Assembly: GCA_032622095.1 (NCBI GenBank)
Contig: CP136067.1
Span: forward strand, 78,084,705 to 78,148,704
Source of the DNA: Siphonodentalium dalli
Taxonomy: Eukaryota > Mollusca > Scaphopoda > Gadilida > Siphonodentaliidae
DNA: 64,000 nt
Reading direction: 5' to 3'
The notes under the pieces were generated by a model, which was not told the origin of the DNA, did not search any database, and saw only the letters and a list, made by a program, of their open reading frames with translations. Positions 30,648 to 63,193 of this stretch are shown piece after piece. Numbering within the stretch: position 1 is the stretch's first letter; each line of letters starts with the position of its first letter. Made by a program: the position numbers and the translations under genes.

Positions 30648-30805
30648 AGAGAGAGCAACGAGATCACCCCTCCCAATATACCACGAAACAACACTAAGTA
30701 CCTTGACCTTAGATGATTCTAGCCCCAGATTATCAATCAAGAATAACCCGGATTCGCGTTCCGAAACTGAATATACAGGCGACTGGTACACACGTTCCAC
30801 ACTCT
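30648..30805 (+). repeat. Local ~190-bp repeat, copy 1
   Basis: It begins GAGAGCAACGAGAT, passes through ACCACGAAACAACA and GATTATCAATC, and ends ACACGTTCCACACTC. Related copies are the interrupted one at 30838-30942 plus 33743-33815, and one at 33903-34055. It serves as an internal ruler for the Helitron concatemer between 30943 and 33742. Confidence 0.6.
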
Positions 30806-30837
30806 AAACGATCAGGGACTACTGGAAGAACGCGAGA

Positions 30838-30942
30838 GACAAGAGAGTAACGAGACCTCCCCAACTATATATACCATAAACCAACACGTTTATATATACG
30901 CTCTTCATTATACATGTATGGATGAATAAATATATATATATA
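30838..30942 (+). repeat. Local ~190-bp repeat, copy 2, left part
   Basis: GAGAGTAACGAGACC...CATAAACCAACA matches copy 1, then runs into a TATATATATA stretch ending in A, where the Helitron concatemer begins. The right part of the same copy resumes at 33743 with TTATCAATCGCG. Confidence 0.55.
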
Positions 30943-31515
30943 CTAGCCGATGAGCCCGACGTTGTCCGGGCTATTCAAAAACCAAATTTCAAGTCGATAG
31001 CTCGGCGACCCGATAAAATTCGTATCCGGGGCAAGATACATTCACATAGCAAATTTCAAGTCGATAGCTCCACCCGTTTCCGAGATCTCGTCTGCGCATG
31101 CGCGAAGCTGGTGTCGCACGGGCTCGGCGACCCGATAAAATTCGTATCCGGGGCAAGATACATTCACATAGCAAATTTCAAGTCGATAGCTCCACCAGTT
31201 TCCGAGATCTCGTCTGCGCATGCGCGAAGCGGGCCCCGCACGGGCTCGGCGACCAGATAAAATTCGCATTCGGGGCAAGATACATTCACATAGCAAATTT
31301 CAAGTCGATAGCTCCACCCGTTTCCGAGATCTCGTCTGCGCATGCGCGAAGCGGGCGCCGCACGGGCTCGCCAATACGACAACGACCACCGCCTGGTCAA
31401 ACTACACACACGTACCAAGTTTCGTCCCGATCGGTCGAGAATCGTAGATTTGTATAAATGACAAACAAACATACATACAGACAGACAAACAGAGGTCTTC
31501 AAAATATATATGAGA
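30943..31515 (-). mobile_element. Helitron family A, concatemer unit A2
   Basis: Plus-strand left edge is A then CTAG; right edge is ...ATATATGAGA directly abutting CTAG of the next copy. The first 122-bp unit carries an internal deletion (GATAGCTCGGCGACCCG), followed by further 122-bp units and the standard tail block. The hairpin GCCCG-AC-GTT-GT-C-CGGGC is intact. Confidence 0.85.
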
Positions 31516-32029
31516 CTAGCCGATGAGCCCAACGTTGTCCGGGCTATTCAAAAACCAAATTTCAAGTCGATAGCTCCACCCGTTTCCGAGATCCGGTCTG
31601 CGCATGCGCGAAGCTGGCGTCGCACGGGCTCGGCGACCCGATAAAATTCGTGTCCGGGGCAAGACACATTCACATACCAAATTTCAAGTCGATAGCTCCA
31701 CCCGTTGCCGAGATCTCGTCTGCGCATGCGCGAAGCTGGCGTCGCACGGGCTCGGCGACCCGATAAAATTCGCACCCGGGGCAAGATACATTCACATACC
31801 AAATATCAAGTCGATAGCTCCACCCGTTTCCGAGATCTCGTCTGCGCATGCGCGAAGCGGGCGCCGCACGGGCTCGCCAATACGACAACGTTCACCGCCT
31901 GGTCAAACTACACACACGTACCAAGTTTCGTCCCGATCGGTCGAGAATCGTAGATTTGTATAAATGACAGACAAACAAACAAACAAACAAACATACATAC
32001 AGACAGAGGTCTTCAAAATATATATGAGA
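31516..32029 (-). mobile_element. Helitron family A, concatemer unit A3
   Basis: Complete copy of 514 bp with three 122-bp units. The hairpin has one change (GCCCAACGTTG). It abuts A2 and A4 with no intervening base: the plus-strand GAGA end is followed at once by CTAG. Confidence 0.87.
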
Positions 32030-32488
32030 CTAGCCGATGAGCCCGACGTTGTCCGGGCTATTCAAAAACAAAATTTCAAGTCGATAGCTCTACCCGTTTC
32101 CGAGATCTGGTCTGCGCATGCGCGAAGCTGGCGTCGCACGGACTCGGCGACCCGATAAAATTCGTATCCGGGGCAAGATACATTCACATAGCAAATTTCA
32201 AGTCGATAGCTCCACCCGTTTCCGAGATCTCGTCTGCGCATGCGCGAAGCTGGTGTCGCACGGGCTCGGCGACCCGATAAAATTCGTATCCGGGGCAAGA
32301 TACATTCACATAGCAAATTTCAAGTCGATAGCTCCACCCGTTTCCGAGATCTCGTCTGCGCATGCGCGAAGCGGGCGCCGCACGGGCTCGCCAATACGAC
32401 AACGTCCACCGCCTGGTCAAACTACACACACGTACCAAGTTTCGTCACGATCGGTCGAGAATCGTAGATTTGTATTAATGACAGACAT

Positions 32489-32519
<31 letters not shown>

Positions 32520-32547
32520 AACAGAGGTCTTCAAAATATATATGAGA
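32030..32547 (-). mobile_element. Helitron family A, concatemer unit A4
   Basis: Complete copy of 518 bp with three 122-bp units and a longer ACAGACAG tract. Both ends are intact, and both neighbours are joined directly. Confidence 0.87.
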
Positions 32548-33477
32548 CTAGCCGATGAGCCCGACGTTGTCCGGGCTATTCAAAAACCAAATTTCAAGTC
32601 CGGGCTATTCAAAAACCAAATTTCAAGTCGATAGCTCTACCCGTTTCCGAGATCTGGTCTGCGGATGCGCGAAGCTGGCGTCACACGGGCTCGGCGACCC
32701 GATAACAATCGTATCCGGAGCAAGATACATTCAAAAACCAAATTTCAAGTCGATAGCTCTACCCGTTTCCGAGATCTGGTCTGAGCATGCGCGAAGCTGG
32801 CGTCGCACCGGCTCGGCGACCCGATAAAATTCGTATCCGGGGCAAGATACATTCACATAGCAAATTTCAAGTCGATAGCTCCACCCGTTTCGAATATCTG
32901 GTCTGCGCATGCGCGAAGCTTGCGTCGCACGGGCACGGCGACCAGATAAAATTCGTATCCGAGGCAAGATACATTCACATAGCAAATTTCAAGTCGATAG
33001 CTCCACCCGTTTCCGAGATCTCGTCTGCGCATGCGCGAAGCTGGCGTCGCACGGGCTCGGCGACCCGATAACATTTCAAGTCGATAGCTCTACCCAGCCC
33101 GACGTTGTCCGGGCTATTCAAAAACCAAATTTCAAGTCGGTAGCTCTACCCGTTTCCGAGATCTGGTCTGCGCATGCGCGAAGCTGGCGTCGCACGGGCT
33201 CGGCGACCCGATAAAATTCGTATCCGGGGCAAGATACATTCACATACCAAATTTCAAGTCGATAGCTCCACCCGTTCCCGAGATCTCGTCTGCGCATGCG
33301 CGAAGCGGGCGCCGCACGGGCTCGCCAATACGACAACGTTCACCGCCTGGTCAAACTACACACACGTACCAAGTTTCGTCCCGATCGGTCGAGAATCGTA
33401 GATTTGTATAAATGACAGACAGACAAACAAACAAACAAACATACATACAGACAGAGGTCTTCAAAATATATATGAGA
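32548..33477 (-). mobile_element. Helitron family A, concatemer unit A5 (internally rearranged)
   Basis: The left hairpin and CTAG are intact, then about 29 bp around CGGGCTATTCAAAAACCAAA is duplicated (32573-32630). The 122-bp units continue to about 33095, where a second, end-truncated hairpin (GCCCGACGTTGTCCGGGC without CTAG) starts mid-unit. This indicates a junction between two copies that lost about 10 bp of the 3' terminus and the whole intervening tail. The right end GAGA then T is intact. Confidence 0.75.
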
Positions 33478-33742
33478 TTAGTATCCGGGGCAAGATACAT
33501 TCACATACCAAATATCAAGTCGATAGCTCCACCCGTTTCCGAGATCTCGTCTGCGCATGCGCGAAGCGGGCGCCGCACGGACTCGCCAATACGACAACGT
33601 TCACCGCCTGGTCAAACTGCACACACGTACCAAGTTTCGTCCCGATCGGTCGAGAATCGTAGATTTGTATAAATGACAGACAGACAGACAAACAAACAAA
33701 CATACATACATACAGACAGAGGTCTTCAAAATATATATGAGA
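33478..33742 (-). mobile_element. Helitron family A, concatemer unit A6 (3'-truncated)
   Basis: It begins inside a 122-bp unit (TATCCGGGGCAAGATACATT), so the hairpin and CTAG end are missing. The tail block, the ACAGACA tract and the minus-strand TCTCATATATATTTTG start are intact and followed by T. Confidence 0.8.
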
Positions 33743-33815
33743 TTATCAATCGCGAAAAATACGAATTTCTGTCCGGGAACCAAAGGAAGGTGTCGTGTAC
33801 ATCCGTTCCGCATTC
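33743..33815 (+). repeat. Local ~190-bp repeat, copy 2, right part
   Basis: TTATCAATCGCGAAAAATAC...CATCCGTTCCGCATTC continues the repeat broken at 30942. This fits the whole concatemer having entered at one AT site. Confidence 0.55.
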
Positions 33816-33902: not shown

Positions 33903-34055
33903 GTATAGCGAGACTACCACAATGTATCGTGAATCAACACATTGCCGTGAACCTGGACCCAATGCATGCAGTCGCCGATTATAAATCGAGAAAAACCCGG
34001 ATTCATATCCGGAAATTCAAGCCATGCAGATGTCTTGTAAACACGTTCGACATTC
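33903..34055 (+). repeat. Local ~190-bp repeat, copy 3
   Basis: GCGAGACTACCAC...GAATCAACAC, then GATTATAAATCGAGAAAAACC and ACACGTTCGACATTC, parallel copies 1 and 2 at lower identity. An inverted relative of the GGTTGCAGAC...AACTGTTGCC block of copy 1's left flank (about 30468-30520) occurs at about 34145-34195. Confidence 0.5.
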
Positions 34056-34823
34056 ATCTCAATATATACATGTGTGCTATATATAATAATAAGTATAGCC
34101 ACTATACTACACACTACCGCATAACAGGCGTTTTTCTTCAGACGAAACTCGCCCTCAACCGTGGCAACAGTTGTCTGCAACCTGCATGGTCAATAGCAAT
34201 AGAGACCTTTAGCAAAATCACGAATACGATTACGGATATGGAAATATCCTGCCAGTATACGGCCAAAATTCGACCTTTACGCACGGGGGTTCTTATGTGA
34301 GACGAAATATACCCCACGCAGTTTAGTAATGTGCAGATGTGTCAATAATGTGACACCGGTCCTGTTTGGGGACGCTCCAACATTAACCGTGTGGTATATT
34401 ACACACGGATACGAACATGGGATCTGAAAGAGACACACATTACTTTTTCCGTGAGATATATGTGTAACTGAATACAGTGAGGCATATGCCGTCCTATAAA
34501 TTAGCCATCGTATACAGGTAAATGTGATGGTGTCAACCTTACTAGGACAGTATATCCTATATATCCGTAATCGTAATAGTGATTTTTTGCGAAAGGTCTC
34601 TATTGTTGTGTTTTAGCGGTAAGATAATGCGAAAATCCCACAGAATAGTAATATAGAGTAGTTTTAAAAAGTTGGTCGAATCCTGATGCGGGAAAAAGAA
34701 AATTTTCGGACAAATCGGATCCCGAATCCGGGTTAAAGATAGTTATTAGATGCTTTATTGATAACTCAATCGTACTATTATACACATACTATAGAGTCAT
34801 GTAACATATTTACAGTGTATGTA

Positions 34824-50690: not shown

Positions 50691-50953
50691 CTAGCTGGTG
50701 GGCCCGACTTCATCCGGACTGTTCCCCTCTGCTTGCATCCGGATCTAACACCAAAATCCGTCAAAAGGTGCGATTTGACCTTGAATTGACAATTTTGAAG
50801 GTCAAGGTCAAGTCGGGGTCACGATTTGACCCGTCCAAAACACTCCCCGGACAAAAGTAGCCCTATGTATCAAATTTCGTCGAAATCCGTCCGGCAGTTT
50901 TCCCGGCCATTGCAAATAAACAGACATACAGAAGTCCCAAAATATAAAGTAGA
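50691..50953 (-). mobile_element. Minimal Helitron, family C, copy C2
   Basis: Only 263 bp. The plus-strand left edge is A then CTAG, 7 nt (CTGGTGG), and a GCCCGAC-TTC-ATCCGG hairpin. One TTTGACCTT...AGGTCAAGGTCA module follows (direct repeat at 50799-50810), then ATCAAATTTCGTCGAAATCC, an ACAGACATACAG tract, and AAGTAGA abutting the next CTAG. Copy 2 lies at 56450-56712. Confidence 0.78.
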
Positions 50954-52095
50954 CTAGCATATTAGCCCGCCACTGGCGGGATTGGTCCCATGGCTTTGGT
51001 CGATCCATTAATTTTTGTTTTTCAAGGTAACCCCGTACAGGCACTTCGACAGCCGACAAAAATATTCCCCTGCTGAGTTGACCATACATAACAAATTTCA
51101 CGTCGATGTCACCGCTGACGACCGATATATCGCCCAAGGTCATTTGTGGGTACCCGTTTCAAGGTGAAGGTCAACTTAGGCGGACAAACAGACCTAACGA
51201 AAATATCCCCCGTCCATTGGAAGCCCTAAATTGGAAATTTCGTCTCGATATCCCCAATTTCAGAGACGGTCGATTGAGCCGTATTTATACTCGTGTATAT
51301 AAACGCTCTTTAACAACGACACCGCAGATACGAAAGCTCTTTAATCATTAACCCATCAATTCCAACGACGGTAGCAGGGCGAAGTGTGAAGGAGTGCTGC
51401 ATAATATTTCGAGCGACAGACTACAATCAGACTCCCGTCATACAGATAGGTATATAGTGAAAACGACGCTCTTTATATAGACACTGCGGAAAACGAACGC
51501 TCTTTATATATCAACGCTATTAACCCCGAAGTGCCGATTGCGGTGATTTTGATGATTGGGAAGGGAGAAACGGTGCTCTGAGCTTCTCTAAAACGCGACC
51601 ACGGCGGTGTCCGTGGGATTTTACACTTATATACGAAATTTGAGCTCGATCCGTCAACGTGTTTTCGATTCTATGAAGTACACACACACACACGCACACA
51701 CCCTCACACACACCCTCTCACACACACACACACACCCCCCACACACACACCCTCACACACACCCTTGTTTGTATTACATACGTTGTGGGGACATTTCTTT
51801 AGAAATTCAAACAATACCGTAGTTGTGAGGACCTCGTTATTTCGTAAATATATCCAAACTCGGAGGGTACCTTTAACGAAATAACGGCAATCTTTGTAAC
51901 GCATGCGTAGTATCATTTCCGCCTACTGCGGACGAAAAAATATCAAAAATTTCAAAAAATACAAATTTCCGTCGCCTTAAGGGAAACAACTGTTAACATT
52001 GTGAGGACATTGTTTTACTATATGAATGTCCTCACAGAGATGGGTTAACACACTCACACACACTTATATATACGGAAGTCGCAAAATATATAGTA
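50954..52095 (-). mobile_element. Helitron, family B, copy B1
   Basis: The 3' end (minus strand) is the perfect hairpin CCCGCC-AGT-GGCGGG, 7 nt, CTAG. The 5' end reads TACTATATATTTTGCGACTTCC and abuts the CTAG of the next element. Inside are several CGCTCTTTA motifs (51302, 51331, 51466, 51497), a TTTGAGCTCGATCCGT block and a long CA/CCCTCACA microsatellite (51680-51764). There is no Rep/helicase frame. Confidence 0.75.
51680..51764 (+). repeat. (CA)n/(CCCTCACA)n microsatellite
   Basis: Located just inside the 5' end of Helitron B1, at the position where family A carries its ACAGACA tract. The duplicate copy is at 57439-57523. Confidence 0.95.
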
Positions 52096-52999
52096 CTAGC
52101 AGGTTATCCCGCTACTGGCGGCATTCGTCTCATGGCTTTGTTTCAGAAACATGACATTTTATAAATTTAACCAAATTTCAAGTCGATAGCTCCACCCGTT
52201 TCCGAGATCTGGTCTGCGCATGCGCGAAGCTTGCGTCGCACGGGCTCGGCGACCCGATAAAATTCGTATCCGCGGCAAGATACATTCACATAGCAAATTT
52301 CAAGTCGATGGCTCCACCCGTTTCTGAGATCTCGTCTGCGCACGCGCTGCACGGGCGTCGCACGGGCTCGGCGACCCGATAAAATTCGTACCTGGGGCAA
52401 GATACATTCACATACCAAATTTCAAGTCGATAGCTCCACCCGTTTCCGAGATCTCGTCTGCGCATGCGCGAAGCTGGCGTCGCACGGGCTCGGCGACCCG
52501 ATAAAATTCGTATCCGGGGCAAGATACATTGACATACCAAATTTCAAGTCGATAGCTCCACCCGTTTCCGATATCTCGTCTGCGCATGCGCGAAATTGGT
52601 GTCGCACGGGCTCGGCGACCCGATAAAATTCGTATCCGGGGCAAGATACATTCACATAGCAAATTTCAAGTCGATAGCTCCACCCGTTTCCGAGATCTCG
52701 TCTGCGCATGCGTGAATCTGGCGTCGCACGGGCTCGGCGACCCGATAAAATTCGTATTCGGGGCAAGACACATTCACATACCAAATTTCAAGTCGATAGC
52801 TCCTCCCATTTCCGAGATCTCGTCTGCGCATGCGCTACACGGGAGTCGCATGGGCTCGTCAATACGACAACGACCACCCCCTGGTCAAACTACACACACG
52901 TACCAAGTTTCGTCCCGATCGGTCGAGAATCGTAGATTTGTATTAATGACAGACAGACAGACAAACAGACAGACAGAGGTCTTCAAAATATATATGAGA
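52096..52999 (-). mobile_element. Chimeric Helitron: B-type 3' end, A-type repeats and 5' end
   Basis: Plus-strand left: CTAG, CAGGTTA and a TCCCGCTACTGGCGGC hairpin, a slightly decayed B-type terminus. After a short link come six 122-bp family A units (anchors 52175, 52297, 52419, 52541, 52663, 52785), the family A tail and the GAGA end followed by T. It joins two family modules in one element with intact boundaries. The counterpart in copy 2 has nine units. Confidence 0.78.
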
Positions 53000-53003
53000 T
53001 AGA

Positions 53004-54160
53004 CTAGCAGGTTAGCCCGCCACCGGCGGCGTTTGTCCGAAACATTTTGAATTATTTTGTTTTTATTTAAATATTTTTAATATTTTTATTTTTTTTATTA
53101 TATTTAATTTATGTTTCTTTGAATTTGTATTTTATGTTTTGTTTGTGTTTTTCAATGAGTTAATATTGGGTTTTTCAATATTTTACCCGATTTTACCTTG
53201 AATTGATCATTTTAAAGGTCAATGTCATGTCGGGGTCACAATATATAATTTGTGGGTACCCGTTTGAAGGTTAAGACTGACCCGATGAAAAAATCCCCCG
53301 TTCCTAGGAACGACAGACATAATAATGTTTCACACGTCGACGATCCCTGTGTGTTTTTACACTTATATACGAAGTTTGAGCTCACCTAGGGCGGAACAAC
53401 TTACCCGATCCGCGTTCTTAGGAACACAACACGCTCATGTCTATACACGCCCAGACCCAGATGAGGTATGATTTTTTTTATCCTGCCCGTGTCCATTGAG
53501 CAGCCGCTGACAGAGGTTGTCCACCCTTACGAGATGGTCAATAGTCCCCGCAAAGTTAATCCCGTCGTGAAACCCATCCTCGCAAAGAGCGGACAGTCAA
53601 TTAATCCCGTCGTGAACGCCATCAGCAACGCGACGTAATTTTGTTTGGTATCATGTGTTGCGTTCTAAAAATAGGAAAGCACTTGCCCCGTATACCTTTG
53701 CGTAAATACGAAATTGTGAGTGTTGGTTTGTAACCGGGATTTCTGAGAAGCATTATGCCTATAACTACGCCCTTAAGCCCTGACCTAAGTGTCATACATA
53801 CTATAACAATGATGTTGTAAGAGTACTATGGCATCCAATAAATCTCCCCGCATAGGAAACCACTCAATGTTCCCGTATATCTCTCTGCAGATGCTAATAA
53901 CGTTAAATGGTAAACAGACGCTCTTTATAGCGATGCGTCAAAAACAAACGCTCATTAAATAATCACTTGATTAACACACGCCGTGCCTTTGCGGTAATTT
54001 TGGGAGCGGAGAACGCGTGCTCTGAGGTTCTCCAAAACGCATGCGACGACGATTCCCGTGGGTTTTTACATTTAGATGGGAAGTTTGAACTCAATCGAGC
54101 CAACCGTTTTAGATTCTATGAAGTACACATATATATACGGAAGTCTCAAAATATATAGTA
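53004..54160 (-). mobile_element. Helitron, family B, copy B2
   Basis: Left: CTAG, CAGGTTA, GCCCGCCACCGGCGGC hairpin. The next 300 bp is A/T-homopolymer rich (TTTTTATTTAAATATTTTTA), with a decayed AAAGGTCAATGTCA motif. Blocks ATCCCGTCGTGAA and ATACTATAACAATGATGTTG and the CGCTCTTTATAGCGATGCG motif follow. The right end is GGAAGTCTCAAAATATATAG. Copy 2 lies at 59129-60285. Confidence 0.72.
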
Positions 54161-56449: not shown

Positions 56450-56712
56450 CTAGCTGGTGGGCCCGACTTCATCCGGACTGTTCCCCTCTGCTTGCATCCG
56501 GATCTAACACCAAAATCCGTCAAAAGGTGCGATTTGACCTTGAATTGACAATTTTGAAGGTCAAGGTCAAGTCGGGGTCACGATTTGACCCGTCCAAAAC
56601 ACTCCCCGGACAAAAGTAGCCCTATGTATCAAATTTCGTCGAAATCCGTCCGGCAGTTTTCCCGGCCATTGCAAATAAACAGACATACAGAAGTCCCAAA
56701 ATATAAAGTAGA
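56450..56712 (-). mobile_element. Minimal Helitron C, duplication copy 2
   Basis: Identical counterpart of 50691-50953. The AGGTCAAGGTCA repeat is at 56558-56569. Confidence 0.78.
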
Positions 56713-57854
56713 CTAGCATATTAGCCCGCCACTGGCGGGATTGGTCCCATGGCTTTGGTCGATCCATTAATTTTTGTTTTTCAAGGTAACCCCGTACAGG
56801 CACTTCGACAGCCGACAAAAATATTCCCCTGCTGAGTTGACCATACATAACAAATTTCACGTCGATGTCACCGCTGACGACCGATATATCGCCCAAGGTC
56901 ATTTGTGGGTACCCGTTTCAAGGTGAAGGTCAACTTAGGCGGACAAACAGACCTAACGAAAATATCCCCCGTCCATTGGAAGCCCTAAATTGGAAATTTC
57001 GTCTCGATATCCCCAATTTCAGAGACGGTCGATTGAGCCGTATTTATACTCGTGTATATAAACGCTCTTTAACAACGACACCGCAGATACGAAAGCTCTT
57101 TAATCATTAACCCATCAATTCCAACGACGGTAGCAGGGCGAAGTGTGAAGGAGTGCTGCATAATATTTCGAGCGACAGACTACAATCAGACTCCCGTCAT
57201 ACAGATAGGTATATAGTGAAAACGACGCTCTTTATATAGACACTGCGGAAAACGAACGCTCTTTATATATCAACGCTATTAACCCCGAAGTGCCGATTGC
57301 GGTGATTTTGATGATTGGGAAGGGAGAAACGGTGCTCTGAGCTTCTCTAAAACGCGACCACGGCGGTGTCCGTGGGATTTTACACTTATATACGAAATTT
57401 GAGCTCGATCCGTCAACGTGTTTTCGATTCTATGAAGTACACACACACACACGCACACACCCTCACACACACCCTCTCACACACACACACACACCCCCCA
57501 CACACACACCCTCACACACACCCTTGTTTGTATTACATACGTTGTGGGGACATTTCTTTAGAAATTCAAACAATACCGTAGTTGTGAGGACCTTGTTATT
57601 TCGTAAATATATCCAAACTCGGAGGGTACCTTTAACGAAATAACGGCAATCTTTGTAACGCATGCGTAGTATCATTTCCGCCTAGTGCGGACGAAAAAAT
57701 ATCAAAAATTTCAAAAAATACAAATTTCCGTCGCCTTAAGGGAAACAACTGTTAACATTGTGAGGACATTGTTTTACTATATGAATGTCCTCACAGAGAT
57801 GGGTTAACACACTCACACACACTTATATATACGGAAGTCGCAAAATATATAGTA
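56713..57854 (-). mobile_element. Helitron B1, duplication copy 2
   Basis: Counterpart of 50954-52095, with two substitutions (57594 and 57685). Confidence 0.75.
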
Positions 57855-59124
57855 CTAGCAGGTTATCCCGCTACTGGCGGCATTCGTCTCATGGCTTTGT
57901 TTCAGAAACATGACATTTTATAAATTTAACCAAATTTCAAGTCGATAGCTCCACCCGTTTCCGAGATCTGGTCTGCGCATGCGCGAAGCTTGCGTCGCAC
58001 GGGCTCGGCGACCCGATAAAATTCGTATCCGCGGCAAGATACATTCACATAGCAAATTTCAAGTCGATGGCTCCACCCGTTTCTGAGATCTCGTCTGCGC
58101 ACGCGCTGCACGGGCGTCGCACGGGCTCGGCGACCCGATAAAATTCGTACCTGGGGCAAGATACATTCACATACCAAATTTCAAGTCGATAGCTCCACCC
58201 GTTTCCGAGATCTCGTCTGCGCATGCGCGAAGCTGGCGTCGCACGGGCTCGGCGACCCGATAAAATTCGTATCCGGGGCAAGATACATTGACATACCAAA
58301 TTTCAAGTCGATAGCTCCACCCGTTTCCGATATCTCGTCTGCGCATGCGCGAAATTGGTGTCGCACGGGCTCGGCGACCCGATAAAATTCGTATCCGGGG
58401 CAAGATACATTCACATAGCAAATTTCAAGTCGATGGCTCCACCCGTTTCTGAGATCTCGTCTGCGCACGCGCTGCACGGGCGTCGCACGGGCTCGGCGAC
58501 CCGATAAAATTCGTACCTGGGGCAAGATACATTCACATACCAAATTTCAAGTCGATAGCTCCACCCGTTTCCGAGATCTCGTCTGCGCATGCGCGAAGCT
58601 GGCGTCGCACGGGCTCGGCGACCCGATAAAATTCGTATCCGGGGCAAGATACATTGACATACCAAATTTCAAGTCGATAGCTCCACCCGTTTCCGATATC
58701 TCGTCTGCGCATGCGCGAAATTGGTGTCGCACGGGCTCGGCGACCCGATAAAATTCGTATCCGGGGCAAGATACATTCACATAGCAAATTTCAAGTCGAT
58801 AGCTCCACCCGTTTCCGAGATCTCGTCTGCGCATGCGTGAATCTGGCGTCGCACGGGCTCGGCGACCCGATAAAATTCGTATTCGGGGCAAGACACATTC
58901 ACATACCAAATTTCAAGTCGATAGCTCCTCCCATTTCCGAGATCTCGTCTGCGCATGCGCTACACGGGAGTCGCATGGGCTCGTCAATACGACAACGACC
59001 ACCCCCTGGTCAAACTACACACACGTACCAAGTTTCGTCCCGATCGGTCGAGAATCGTAGATTTGTATTAATGACAGACAGACAGACAAACAGACAGACA
59101 GAGGTCTTCAAAATATATATGAGA
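57855..59124 (-). mobile_element. Chimeric Helitron with nine 122-bp units
   Basis: Counterpart of 52096-52999, enlarged by 366 bp. Unit anchors fall at 57934, 58056, 58178, 58300, 58422, 58544, 58666, 58788 and 58910. Diagnostic variants (GATGGCTCC with CACGCGCTGCACGG, GTACCTGGGG, GAAATTGGTG) recur with a 366-bp period, showing the three-unit block was copied as a whole. The tail and GAGA then T end are unchanged. Confidence 0.82.
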
Positions 59125-59128
59125 TAGA

Positions 59129-60285
59129 CTAGCAGGTTAGCCCGCCACAGGCGGCGTTTGTCCGAAACATTTTGAATTATTTTGTTTTTATTTAAATATT
59201 TTTAATATTTTTATTTTTTTTATTATATTTAATTTATGTTTCTTTGAATTTGTATTTTATGTTTTGTTTGTGTTTTTCAATGAGTTAATATTGGGTTTTT
59301 CAATATTTTACCCGATTTTACCTTGAATTGATCATTTTCAAGGTCAATGTCATGTCGGGGTCACAATATATAATTTGTGGGTACCCGTTTGAAGGTTAAG
59401 ACTGACCCGATGAAAAAATCCCCCGTTCCTAGGAACGACAGACATAATAATGTTTCACACGTCGACGATCCCTGTGTGTTTTTACACTTATATACGAAGT
59501 TTGAGCTCACCTAGGGCGGAACAACTTACCCGATCCGCGTTCTTAGGAACACAACACGCTCATGTCTATACACGCCCAGACCCAGATGAGGTATGATTTT
59601 TTTTAACCTGCCCGTGTCCATTGAGCAGCCGCTGACAGAGGTTGTCCACCCTTACGAGATGGTCAATAGTCCCCGCAAAGTTAATCCCGTCGTGAAACCC
59701 ATCCTCGCAAAGAGCGGACAGTCAATTAATCCCGTCGTGAACGCCATCAGCAACGCGACGTAATTTTGTTTGGTATCATGTGTTGCGTTCTAAAAATAGG
59801 AAAGCACTTGCCCCGTATACCTTTGCGTAAATACGAAATTGTGAGTGTTGGTTTGTAACCGGGATTTCTGAGAAGCATTATGCCTATAACTACGCCCTTA
59901 AGCCCTGACCTAAGTGTCATACATACTATAACAATGATGTTGTAAGAGTACTATGGCATCCAATAAATCTCCCCGCATAGGAAACCACTCAATGTTCCCG
60001 TATATCTCTCTGCAGATGCTAATAACGTTAAATGGTAAACAGACGCTCTTTATAGCGATGCGTCAAAAACAAACGCTCATTAAATAATCACTTGATTAAC
60101 ACACGCCGTGCCTTTGCGGTAATTTTGGGAGCGGAGAACGCGTGCTCTGAGGTTCTCCAAAACGCATGCGACGACGATTCCCGTGGGTTTTTACATTTAG
60201 ATGGGAAGTTTGAACTCAATCGAGCCAACCGTTTTAGATTCTATGAAGTACACATATATATACGGAAGTCTCAAAATATATAGTA
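59129..60285 (-). mobile_element. Helitron B2, duplication copy 2
   Basis: Counterpart of 53004-54160, with substitutions at 59149 (in the hairpin, CACAGGCGGC), 59339 and 59606. Confidence 0.72.
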
Positions 60286-61276: not shown

Positions 61277-62343
61277 ATAGATGTGTCAACAGTAGTAACA
61301 GAATCGTTCACTTTATTGTGAAGCAAAGCATGCAATTTGACATTAATGGTCAATGTGAACTGCGAAGACTGATTTTTCCACAACAAACCAATCATAATGG
61401 TGGACTGATTCAAAATGCCTGCCACTTTTCTTCAATATGACCAAAATGACCCTCACTATGCAGGTTAGGGCTGTGCTATCATAAACTATGCCAAGAACTA
61501 TATCGAGATAATTGCATTCCGCGTTTCGTTTTGCATCCGTATTTTACGCATGGGTAGCCGTTTAGCAGCTTCGATTGTTATCTGGCGGAAAAACTGACCC
61601 GATGAAATCCCCCCTTCCTATGAACGACAGCACAACACGCATGTTTTTGTTTTTCATGAATTAATTCATGGTACCCGTCCCTCAAAGACTGACCCGATGA
61701 AAAATTCCCCTGTTCCTAGGACATATATGACACAACAACCCATTCTGCCTTTTTAATCGAGATAATTGCATTCCGCGTTTCGTTTTGCATCCGTATTTTA
61801 CGCATGGGTAGCCGTTTAGCAGCTTCGACTGACCCGATGAAATCCCCCTTCCCTTCCTATGAAAGACAGCACAACACGCATTTTTTGTTTTTCATGAATT
61901 AATTCATGGTACCCGTCCCTCAAAGACTGACCCGATGAAAAATTCCCCTGTTTCTAGGACATATATGACACAACAACCCATTCTGCCTTTTTAATCGCGA
62001 TAATTGCATTCCGCGTTTCGTTTTGCATCCGTATTTTACGCATGGGTAGCCGTTTAGCAGCTTCGGTTGTAATAAAGAGCGTTGATCATTAACACCTCCG
62101 AATATGGTCAATATAAAGATCGTTGATGCCTTAACCCCCGAAGTGGCGTTTGCGGTGATTTTGATGATTGTGAGTGGAGAAAGGGTGCTCAGAGCTTCTC
62201 CAAAACGCGACAACTACGGTGTCCGTGGATTTTCACCCTTAGATGGGAAGTTTGAACTCAATCGAGCCAGCCGTTTTCGATTCTATAAAGTACACATATA
62301 CACACACATATATATATACGGAAGTCTCAAAATATATAGTAGA
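61277..62343 (-). mobile_element. Helitron B fragment with ~240-bp tandem repeats
   Basis: The first 180 bp after the previous element looks like unrelated host sequence. From about 61503 to 62067 a unit containing AGATAATTGCATTCCGCGTT and GCATGGGTAGCCGTTTAGCA repeats at about 240-bp spacing (61503, 61757, 61995). The standard B end follows: GAGCTTCTCCAAAACGCGAC, a TTTGAACTCAATCGAGCC block, GGAAGTCTCAAAATATATAG, TAGA. The 3' hairpin is missing, so the element is truncated on that side. Confidence 0.65.
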
Positions 62344-63193
62344 CTAGCATGTTAGCCCGCCACTGGCGGCGTTGGTCAGAAACATGATATTTTTTTGGCT
62401 TTTCAACGAGTTAATTGTGCCTTTTTAATCAAGAGAAATTATGGTACCCGTCCCTAAAAGATTTAAGGTACATCGGGCGGAAAGAACTGACCCGATGAAA
62501 AATTGTTGTGCCCGACGTTGTCCGGGATATTCAAAAACCAAATTTCAAGTCGATAGCTCCATCCGTTTCCGAGATCTGGTGTGCGCATGCGCTGCACGGG
62601 CGTCGCACGGGCTCGCCAATACGACAACGACGACCACCTGGTCAAACTACACTCACGTACCAAGTTTCGTCCCGATCGGTCGAGGTGTTGGTATCTGATG
62701 CAAAAGACGAAATTGTGAGTGTTGGTTTGTAACCGGGATTTCTGAGAAGCATTATGCCTATATCCACTTTAACTACCCCCTCCTAAGCCCTGACCTAAGT
62801 GTCATACATACTATAACAATGATGTTGTAAGAGTACTATGGCATCCAATAAATCTCCCCGCATAGCTAACCACTCAAAAGTATTGTTCCCGTATATCTCT
62901 CTGCAGATGCTAATAACGTTGAATGGTAAACAGACGCTCTTTATAGCGATGCGTCAAAAACAAACGCTCATTAAATTATCACTTGATTAACCACCGCAGT
63001 GCCGTTTTTTTGTGATTGACATTGGAGAACGGGTGCTCTGATCTTCTTCAAAACGCGACAACTACGGTGTCCGTGGTATTTTACACTTATATACGAAGTT
63101 TGAGCTCAATCTGTCCACGCGTTTTCGATTCCATGAAGTACAAACACACATATATACATATATATACGGAGTTCACAAAATATATAGTATAGA
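62344..63193 (-). mobile_element. Helitron B with nested family A remnant
   Basis: Left: CTAG, CATGTTA, GCCCGCCACTGGCGGC hairpin. At about 62510-62685 it contains a hairpin-plus-unit-plus-tail piece of family A (GCCCGACGTTGTCCGGG, then ACCAAGTTTCGTCCCGATCG) lacking the terminal CTAG and the AT-rich 5' end. B sequence follows, with ATACTATAACAATGATGTTG and CGCTCTTTATAGCGATGCG, and the end AGTATAGA abuts the next CTAG. Confidence 0.72.

Follow-up and report, generated by a model that had tools for sequence, protein, structure and literature searches.

The window, by which we mean the whole 64,000-nucleotide stretch analysed here, contains an array of directly abutting copies of a Helitron family that we call family A, the units being designated u0 to u4 (table 1; within motifs, a slash marks a join or an insertion point). 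On the minus strand, each ...CATCGGCTAG runs directly into TCTCATATATATTTTGAAGACC, with a spacer of 0, at 31515/31516, 32029/32030, and 32547/32548, so that the description given in the initial annotation, that of family-A copies joined without spacer from a CTAG end to the next 5' start, proved exact at all three joints. The 22-nt 5' end of family A occurs eight times in the window, always with 0 mismatches (shuffle mean 0.01), and a chance origin of the joints is ruled out by the shuffles and by the genome-wide junction counts reported below. The array units carry 122-bp internal repeats, whose number differs from one unit to the next, and a GACA/ACAA-type microsatellite near their 5' end. 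The truncated fifth unit, u0, goes beyond the initial annotation, and its border with u1 is the exception among the array joints, as it reads GGATACTAA/TCTC instead of CTAG/TC. The TAA found between the truncated u0 and u1 (33475-33478) is the same as the three host-flank bases that precede u0 (33743-33745), and this border with its repeated TAA possibly reflects an aborted or repaired insertion.

Table 1. Features of the family-A array, its flanks, and a further insertion in the window
Feature	Position	Strand	Description
Whole array	30943-33742	minus	Five units of a Helitron family with TC...CTAG ends (family A), four of them complete and one truncated at its 3' end
u4	30943..31515	minus	573 bp, complete, 3'-most; CTAG adjoins host T (A30942 on the plus strand)
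u3	31516..32029	minus	514 bp, complete, adjoins u4 without spacer; based on ends and boundaries
u2	32030..32547	minus	518 bp, complete, adjoins u3 without spacer; based on ends and boundaries
u1	32548..33477	minus	930 bp, complete, adjoins u2 without spacer; more 122-bp internal repeats
u0	33478..33742	minus	265 bp, 5'-most, 3' end missing; ends GGATACTAA before u1
3' hairpin of u4	30953..30972	minus	AGCCCGGACAACGTCGGGCT, ten bases upstream of the CTAG end; read directly, not folded
Left host flank	30920..30942		On the minus strand, CTAG then TATATATATATATTTATTC, a TA box as at other target sites
Right host flank	33743..33815		Local repeat resumes at A/T
Unit with family-A start and family-C-type 3' end	52096..52999	minus	Inserted within the start of a family-C resident (TCTA/TACTATATATTTTG)

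At the outermost edges of the array, the host A and T announced by the initial annotation are indeed seen, as A30942 and T33743. Flank alignments were scored against the maximum of 300 shuffles. The left flank (30815-30942) aligned with the local copy at 30648-30810 with a score of 40 (shuffle maximum 28), the right flank (33743-33815) with the local copy at 33903-34060 with a score of 39 (25), and the two flanks joined with this same copy at 33903-34060 with a score of 41 (27), the alignment beginning at A30942 itself. The two local copies reached 55 against each other (30), and the other two flank-copy pairs did not rise above their shuffles (20 vs 21 and 19 vs 26). The proposal that the array interrupts a local repeat thus stands insofar as the flanks fit one empty site at A30942/T33743, although the best copy differs for each flank and neither local copy aligns with the TA-rich end on the left. 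The array occupies a single A/T site inside the local repeat.

Family ends, autonomous partner, and target site

Canonical Helitrons (Helitron1) are marked by a 5' TC, a 3' CTRR, and a hairpin some 10-15 bases upstream of the 3' end; they insert between A and T without target duplication, they have a circular intermediate, and their autonomous partners combine Rep and Pif1-like helicase domains. Here, TC and CTAG ends are present in u1-u4 and in the sampled loci, the hairpin AGCCCGGACAACGTCGGGCT is followed by ten bases and then by CTAG, which is the canonical spacing (read, not folded), and the A/T target is found at A30942/T33743 as well as in the host flanks of sampled copies. Family A is therefore a canonical Helitron, and the identity given in the initial annotation fits in its ends, its hairpin, and its target. 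In the available passages, the oyster Helentrons with satellite-like cores resemble family A in being non-autonomous, endowed with internal tandem repeats, and scattered across the genome (PMC7492417, PMC12628747), but Helentrons insert at TT (PMC5148889), whereas family A has TC and CTAG ends and an A/T target. On these same features, an assignment of family A to Helentrons or HINEs, with their TT target and ends other than TC and CTAG, was rejected.

PF14214 has 151 matches in the genome. One locus (L112, C2:141791001-141800900) contains a 1,649-aa open reading frame with Helitron_like_N, REP_ORF2-G2P, PIF1, and Pif1_2B matches, and this element closes with a family-A 3' end altered by one change, directly after which a second copy opens with the family-A 5' end. 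The two form a head-to-tail dimer with a period of 8,571 bp, in which the second copy differs from the first by 1 mismatch in 1,329 bp, the 5' edge of the first copy lying ~37 bp beyond the stretch examined. As judged from these domain matches, the genome includes an autonomous RepHel partner with family-A ends. PF14214 matches also follow each other on one strand at steps of ~8-12 kb in three places (C1:179793298-179817598, C6:36914596-36934946, and C1:114628540-114639087), which suggests further tandem autonomous Helitrons.

With regard to the target, 26 of 27 distinct host 3' flanks begin with T, and TATATA starts within +0..+6 in 81% of 26 host 3' flanks, against 4.1% of 13,010 A/T sites of the window. 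In a stricter set, TATATA was found within 12 bases in 73% of 15 3'-side flanks and in 6.7% of 45 5'-side flanks. The starts of the families themselves (TCTCATATATATTTT, TCTATTATATATTTT, and TCTATACTATATATTTT) have the same layout as this target box, and every insertion therefore creates a new A/T with a TA box. According to the passages available, Helraiser forms circles with a CTAG/TC joint and prefers AT-rich sites, most strongly beside the transposon 3' end (PMC4778049, PMC5876387), and an A/T preference and circles are also described for wheat Helitrons (PMC13286980). Helraiser and the bat Helibat family resemble family A in their TC and CTAG ends, hairpin, A/T target, and 3'-side AT preference (PMC4778049, PMC5876387).

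Junctions within and between families

The genome-wide screen for CTAG-TC junctions that had been proposed in the initial annotation (2.23 Gb, nine contigs) returned 10,817 A-A head-to-tail junctions and 0 head-to-head A counterparts, both with up to 3 mismatches, this zero being an imperfect proof in view of the possible instability of long inverted repeats. Family A has 16,426 exact 22-nt 5' ends, of which 7,593 (46%) come after an A and 8,833 after something else, and 17,443 exact 20-nt 3' ends. A second family, B, starts with TCTATTATATATTTTGGAAGAT and has CTAG ends, a related hairpin, and a length of about 0.5-1.1 kb in the copies read, but little in common with A beyond the ends; 4,299 of its 9,954 exact 5' ends (43%) come after an A and 5,655 after something else. 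The 3' end of A is joined to the 5' end of the different, more diverged B in 7,033 A-B junctions (up to 3 mismatches), about ten times the number of B-A junctions, of which 717 were counted more strictly (up to 2 mismatches, one B 3' variant). Such an excess would follow if A, the younger family, were added on the 5' side. One stretch, C1:188850289-188868837, holds at least 17 B-A joints spaced about 1.06 or 1.19 kb apart, that is, a satellite-like array of A+B composites.

What lies behind family-A copies was read on contig C1, from the 100 exact A 3' ends that come first; 22 of them fall in a dense cluster (13.751-13.79 Mb), and the remaining 78 were all covered. Outside the cluster, 56 of the 78 ends run directly into the start of a Helitron (40 into A, 11 into a B-like start, 3 into C, and 2 into other Helitron-like starts) and 22 abut host DNA, a few of these host flanks duplicating one another; within the cluster, 3 abut A, 1 abuts host DNA, and 18 lie outside the DNA examined. 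On the minus strand, C1:13751880-13787159 is dense in family-A and family-B ends and lies beside a PF14214 match at 13743912.

To put the 56 of 78 in perspective, 4.5e8 A/T sites in the genome (scaled from the window, whose base composition is assumed to be typical) at a rate of 4.1% give ~1.9e7 expected oriented box sites, of which the 26,380 exact A and B starts represent 0.14%. A model in which only the TA box guides serial insertion was thus rejected, as it would make such joins more than two orders of magnitude too rare. Likewise, a search for A inserted at the inner A/T of B (TCTA/TT) gave 0 matches with up to 2 mismatches, which favours the edge itself, though the spacing of the TA box also differs there. 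The unit at 52096..52999 does use the inner A/T of a family-C start and not its edge, the joined flanks restoring the C start with 1 mismatch in 28 bases.

Mixed joints were also compared with one another. Forty short loci were taken, 31 from the A 3'-end list and 9 chosen from the A-B list. The A-B test set comprised 36 junctions with both sides readable, 15 rows lacking the B anchor (among them several from other families or repeating one locus) and rows that were too short having been dropped. Over these 36 junctions, the mean difference was 0.063 for A and 0.207 for B, the A and B distance tables were uncorrelated (Mantel r 0.08, p 0.18), and two pairs were local duplicates. A and B hence vary independently, and family A therefore landed many times, separately, at the first base of different, more diverged B elements.

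Similarity between units

The units of the window array were compared with 126 complete outside units filtered by length, u1 having only 3 length-matched counterparts, none from its own array, and u0 being truncated. The mutual identity of u2, u3, and u4 is 95.1-96.1%, and u3, which is 95.1-95.3% identical to u2 and u4, matches a unit on contig C1 (L005) at 99.8% over 505 bp. Neighbours from the same array rank 37th and 73rd of 105 for u2, 37th and 39th of 105 for u3, and 6th and 27th of 83 for u4, whose identity with u2 (96.05%, rank 6 of 83) is nearly equal to its best outside match (96.9%). Given their mutual identity and the near-identical relative of u3 on C1, u2-u4 were not copies of one template at insertion. 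The claim that the array entered as one rolling-circle multimer is hence not supported, while the alternative offered alongside it, growth in place after one insertion, is. Whole-array copying was rejected as well: two other arrays (L002 and L003) resembled this one at first but, unit by unit, are not copies of it.

We then extended the comparison to 137 units over a 235-bp stretch, among which L001-L008 had been picked by their likeness to the window array and the others were mostly the first listed on C1. Mean difference was 0.059 for 72 abutting A-A pairs and 0.072 for units more than 50 kb apart or on other contigs; a difference below 2% was seen in 6 of the 72 abutting pairs and in 0.55% of distant pairs, the other 66 abutting pairs being at least 2% apart. 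In 28 chains, the distances between first units were uncorrelated with those between second units (r -0.07, p 0.67). At the other end of the range, three units of L002 are 0 to 0.9% apart over these 235 bp. Common variants agree at 0.73 within arrays and 0.60 between them (largest shuffle 0.68), and for 30 of 105 units the closest relative in the sample belongs to the same array (shuffle mean 4.9, maximum 13); some neighbours therefore have a recent source in common.

Origin of the arrays

On the whole, the array is probably a stack that results from successive insertions at the A/TC edge of a resident Helitron. A first Helitron would enter a host A/T with a TA-rich box behind it, and the left edge of this resident, in which the host A meets TC..TATATAT of the element, would again present an A/T with a box, while also being the sort of place where RepHel would nick to begin transposition. 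A Helitron arriving later, from this family or a related one, would then join exactly at this A/TC edge and in the same orientation, giving CTAG/TC without spacer, and because the A/TC edge of each newcomer would be the next acceptor, the stack would grow at its 5' side, with the newest unit upstream. Most simply, the RepHel nick at the A/TC of the resident would itself be the acceptor, which would account for orientation, exactness, the mixing of families with related ends, and 5'-side growth. For Helraiser, cleavage in vitro precisely before the 5' TC and the nicking of a resident copy by RepHel to start transposition are both in print (PMC4778049).

On the side of observation, the joints are exact and head-to-tail only, the units are heterogeneous, mixed joints vary independently, the target has its box, and the autonomous RepHel element has family-A ends; against stacking, units are more alike within arrays than between them, u4 is nearly as close to u2 as to its best outside match, u0 does not fit a clean CTAG/TC insertion, and the in-window insertion at 52096..52999 is at an inner A/T, not at the resident edge. 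The order of arrival would be expected to leave an age gradient. In the A stacks, age order went in the expected direction but was not significant (37 vs 29 pairs, p 0.26), nor was the comparison of first and last units (14 to 10, p 0.22; 15 to 10, p 0.10 in another comparison). Within the window array, u1 to u4 diverge from the sample majority by 0.017, 0.017, 0.026, and 0.034, respectively, which fits the 3'-most unit being the oldest but, with four values only, proves nothing. It is about an even question whether a more general principle holds, under which a RepHel nick at the A/TC of any related resident would be an acceptor favoured far above host A/T, so that several families could build one-way, 5'-growing stacks whose self-renewing landing site would keep copies together, spare host DNA, and seed satellite-like mixed arrays.

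The array could also be a rolling-circle concatemer, produced when replication of one circle runs past the 3' terminator and inserted as a multimer in a single event at A/T. Exact CTAG/TC joints with no host bases between them and a single A/T site for the array are what this process would give, Helraiser circles with a CTAG/TC joint have been described (PMC4778049), and near-identical neighbours do exist, as in the 6 of 72 pairs below 2%, the L002 units, and the autonomous dimer. Yet u2-u4 differ by 4-5%, u3 has its 99.8% relative elsewhere, 66 of the 72 abutting pairs are at least 2% apart, and one circle cannot yield 7,033 A-B joints, which makes this origin unlikely. The missed 3' terminator invoked in the initial annotation as a maker of multimers is thus not supported for this array but may hold for a minority of cases: some neighbours may be rolling-circle or tandem duplicates, and rolling-circle multimers remain the natural explanation of the near-identical autonomous dimer and of arrays such as L002. 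Growth in place through unequal crossing-over or gene conversion after one insertion seems a rather poor prospect, for it creates neither the first CTAG/TC joint nor the mixed-family joints, and the similarity of units within arrays is barely above background, even though the many repeats of the array could mispair, the 122-bp repeat number varies between units, and some neighbours are near-identical.

Homologous integration, whereby a monomer circle with a CTAG/TC joint recombines with a resident copy into a head-to-tail pair, would yield exact joints, head-to-tail order only, and units of different source, all as observed, and such circles are reported for Helraiser (PMC4778049); however, A and B share little beyond their ends and nevertheless form 7,033 exact A-B joints, and we hold it to be very improbable. 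Finally, a formed stack (A-A or A-B) might be copied whole by end bypass, a few original joins thereby becoming thousands. Helraiser is known to read through its 3' end (PMC4778049), and both the two locally duplicated pairs among the 36 A-B junctions and the regular C1 run of at least 17 B-A joints agree with composite transposition, but A and B vary independently across these junctions, as do first and second A units in the 28 chains, which leaves it with hardly any probability.

Tandem head-to-tail Helitrons have been described in maize and bats (PMC2267711, also describing Pritham and Feschotte 2007) and are mentioned for bats, plants, Drosophila, and fungi (PMC5148889, PMC5876387). For one maize pair, both models were already stated, namely rolling-circle repeats and insertion at the A/T formed by the host A and the first T of the resident (PMC2267711). 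As far as the available passages go, the bat and maize cases show exact CTAG/TC joints, as here, but are single or several, whereas the present genome offers 10,817 same-family and 7,033 mixed joints and a test between the models (PMC2267711). Arrays of truncated Helitrons in plant centromeres, attributed to rolling-circle amplification (Xiong et al. 2016, as summarised in PMC12628747), are alike in their tandem Helitrons, with 5' ends often repeated, but consist of truncated copies, whereas most units seen here have both ends and differ in sequence; the same summary has Drosophila Helitron dimers forming through insertion-site preference (PMC12628747). The Helraiser and Helibat passages mention Helitrons right beside another one and do not state the resident 5' edge as a favoured target (PMC4778049, PMC5876387). 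Tandem Helitrons and both models are thus known, while the scale, the mixed-family joints, and the test between models were not met in our limited literature search (mainly titles and the beginnings of abstracts), which likewise returned no report of genome-wide mixed-family stacking at A/TC. Head-to-tail Helitrons have been cited as support for rolling-circle transposition (PMC5876387); since most sampled tandem joints here are not like single-template multimers, such joints alone are weak support for it. The old choice between the two models hereby becomes directly testable, and a landing site that every insertion renews would account for the accumulation of Helitrons with no fresh break in host DNA and for the beginnings of mixed-family satellites.

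A few minor observations complete this picture. Four sampled loci (L043, L044, L048, and L068) have A-A joints without the last G (CGGCTA/TCTC), in which the joint itself is A/T; L043 and L044 represent a single place, which has part of its 3' flank in common with L048. In the window, a ~6-kb segment is tandemly duplicated (50691-53020 and 56450-59145), with flanking ends common to both duplicates and a 122-bp repeat block of 5.7 copies in one and 8.6 in the other. Family C stacks too, with spacer-less CTAG/TCTA..TATATATTTTG joints on the minus strand at 62343 and 63193 (window 61277-63193).
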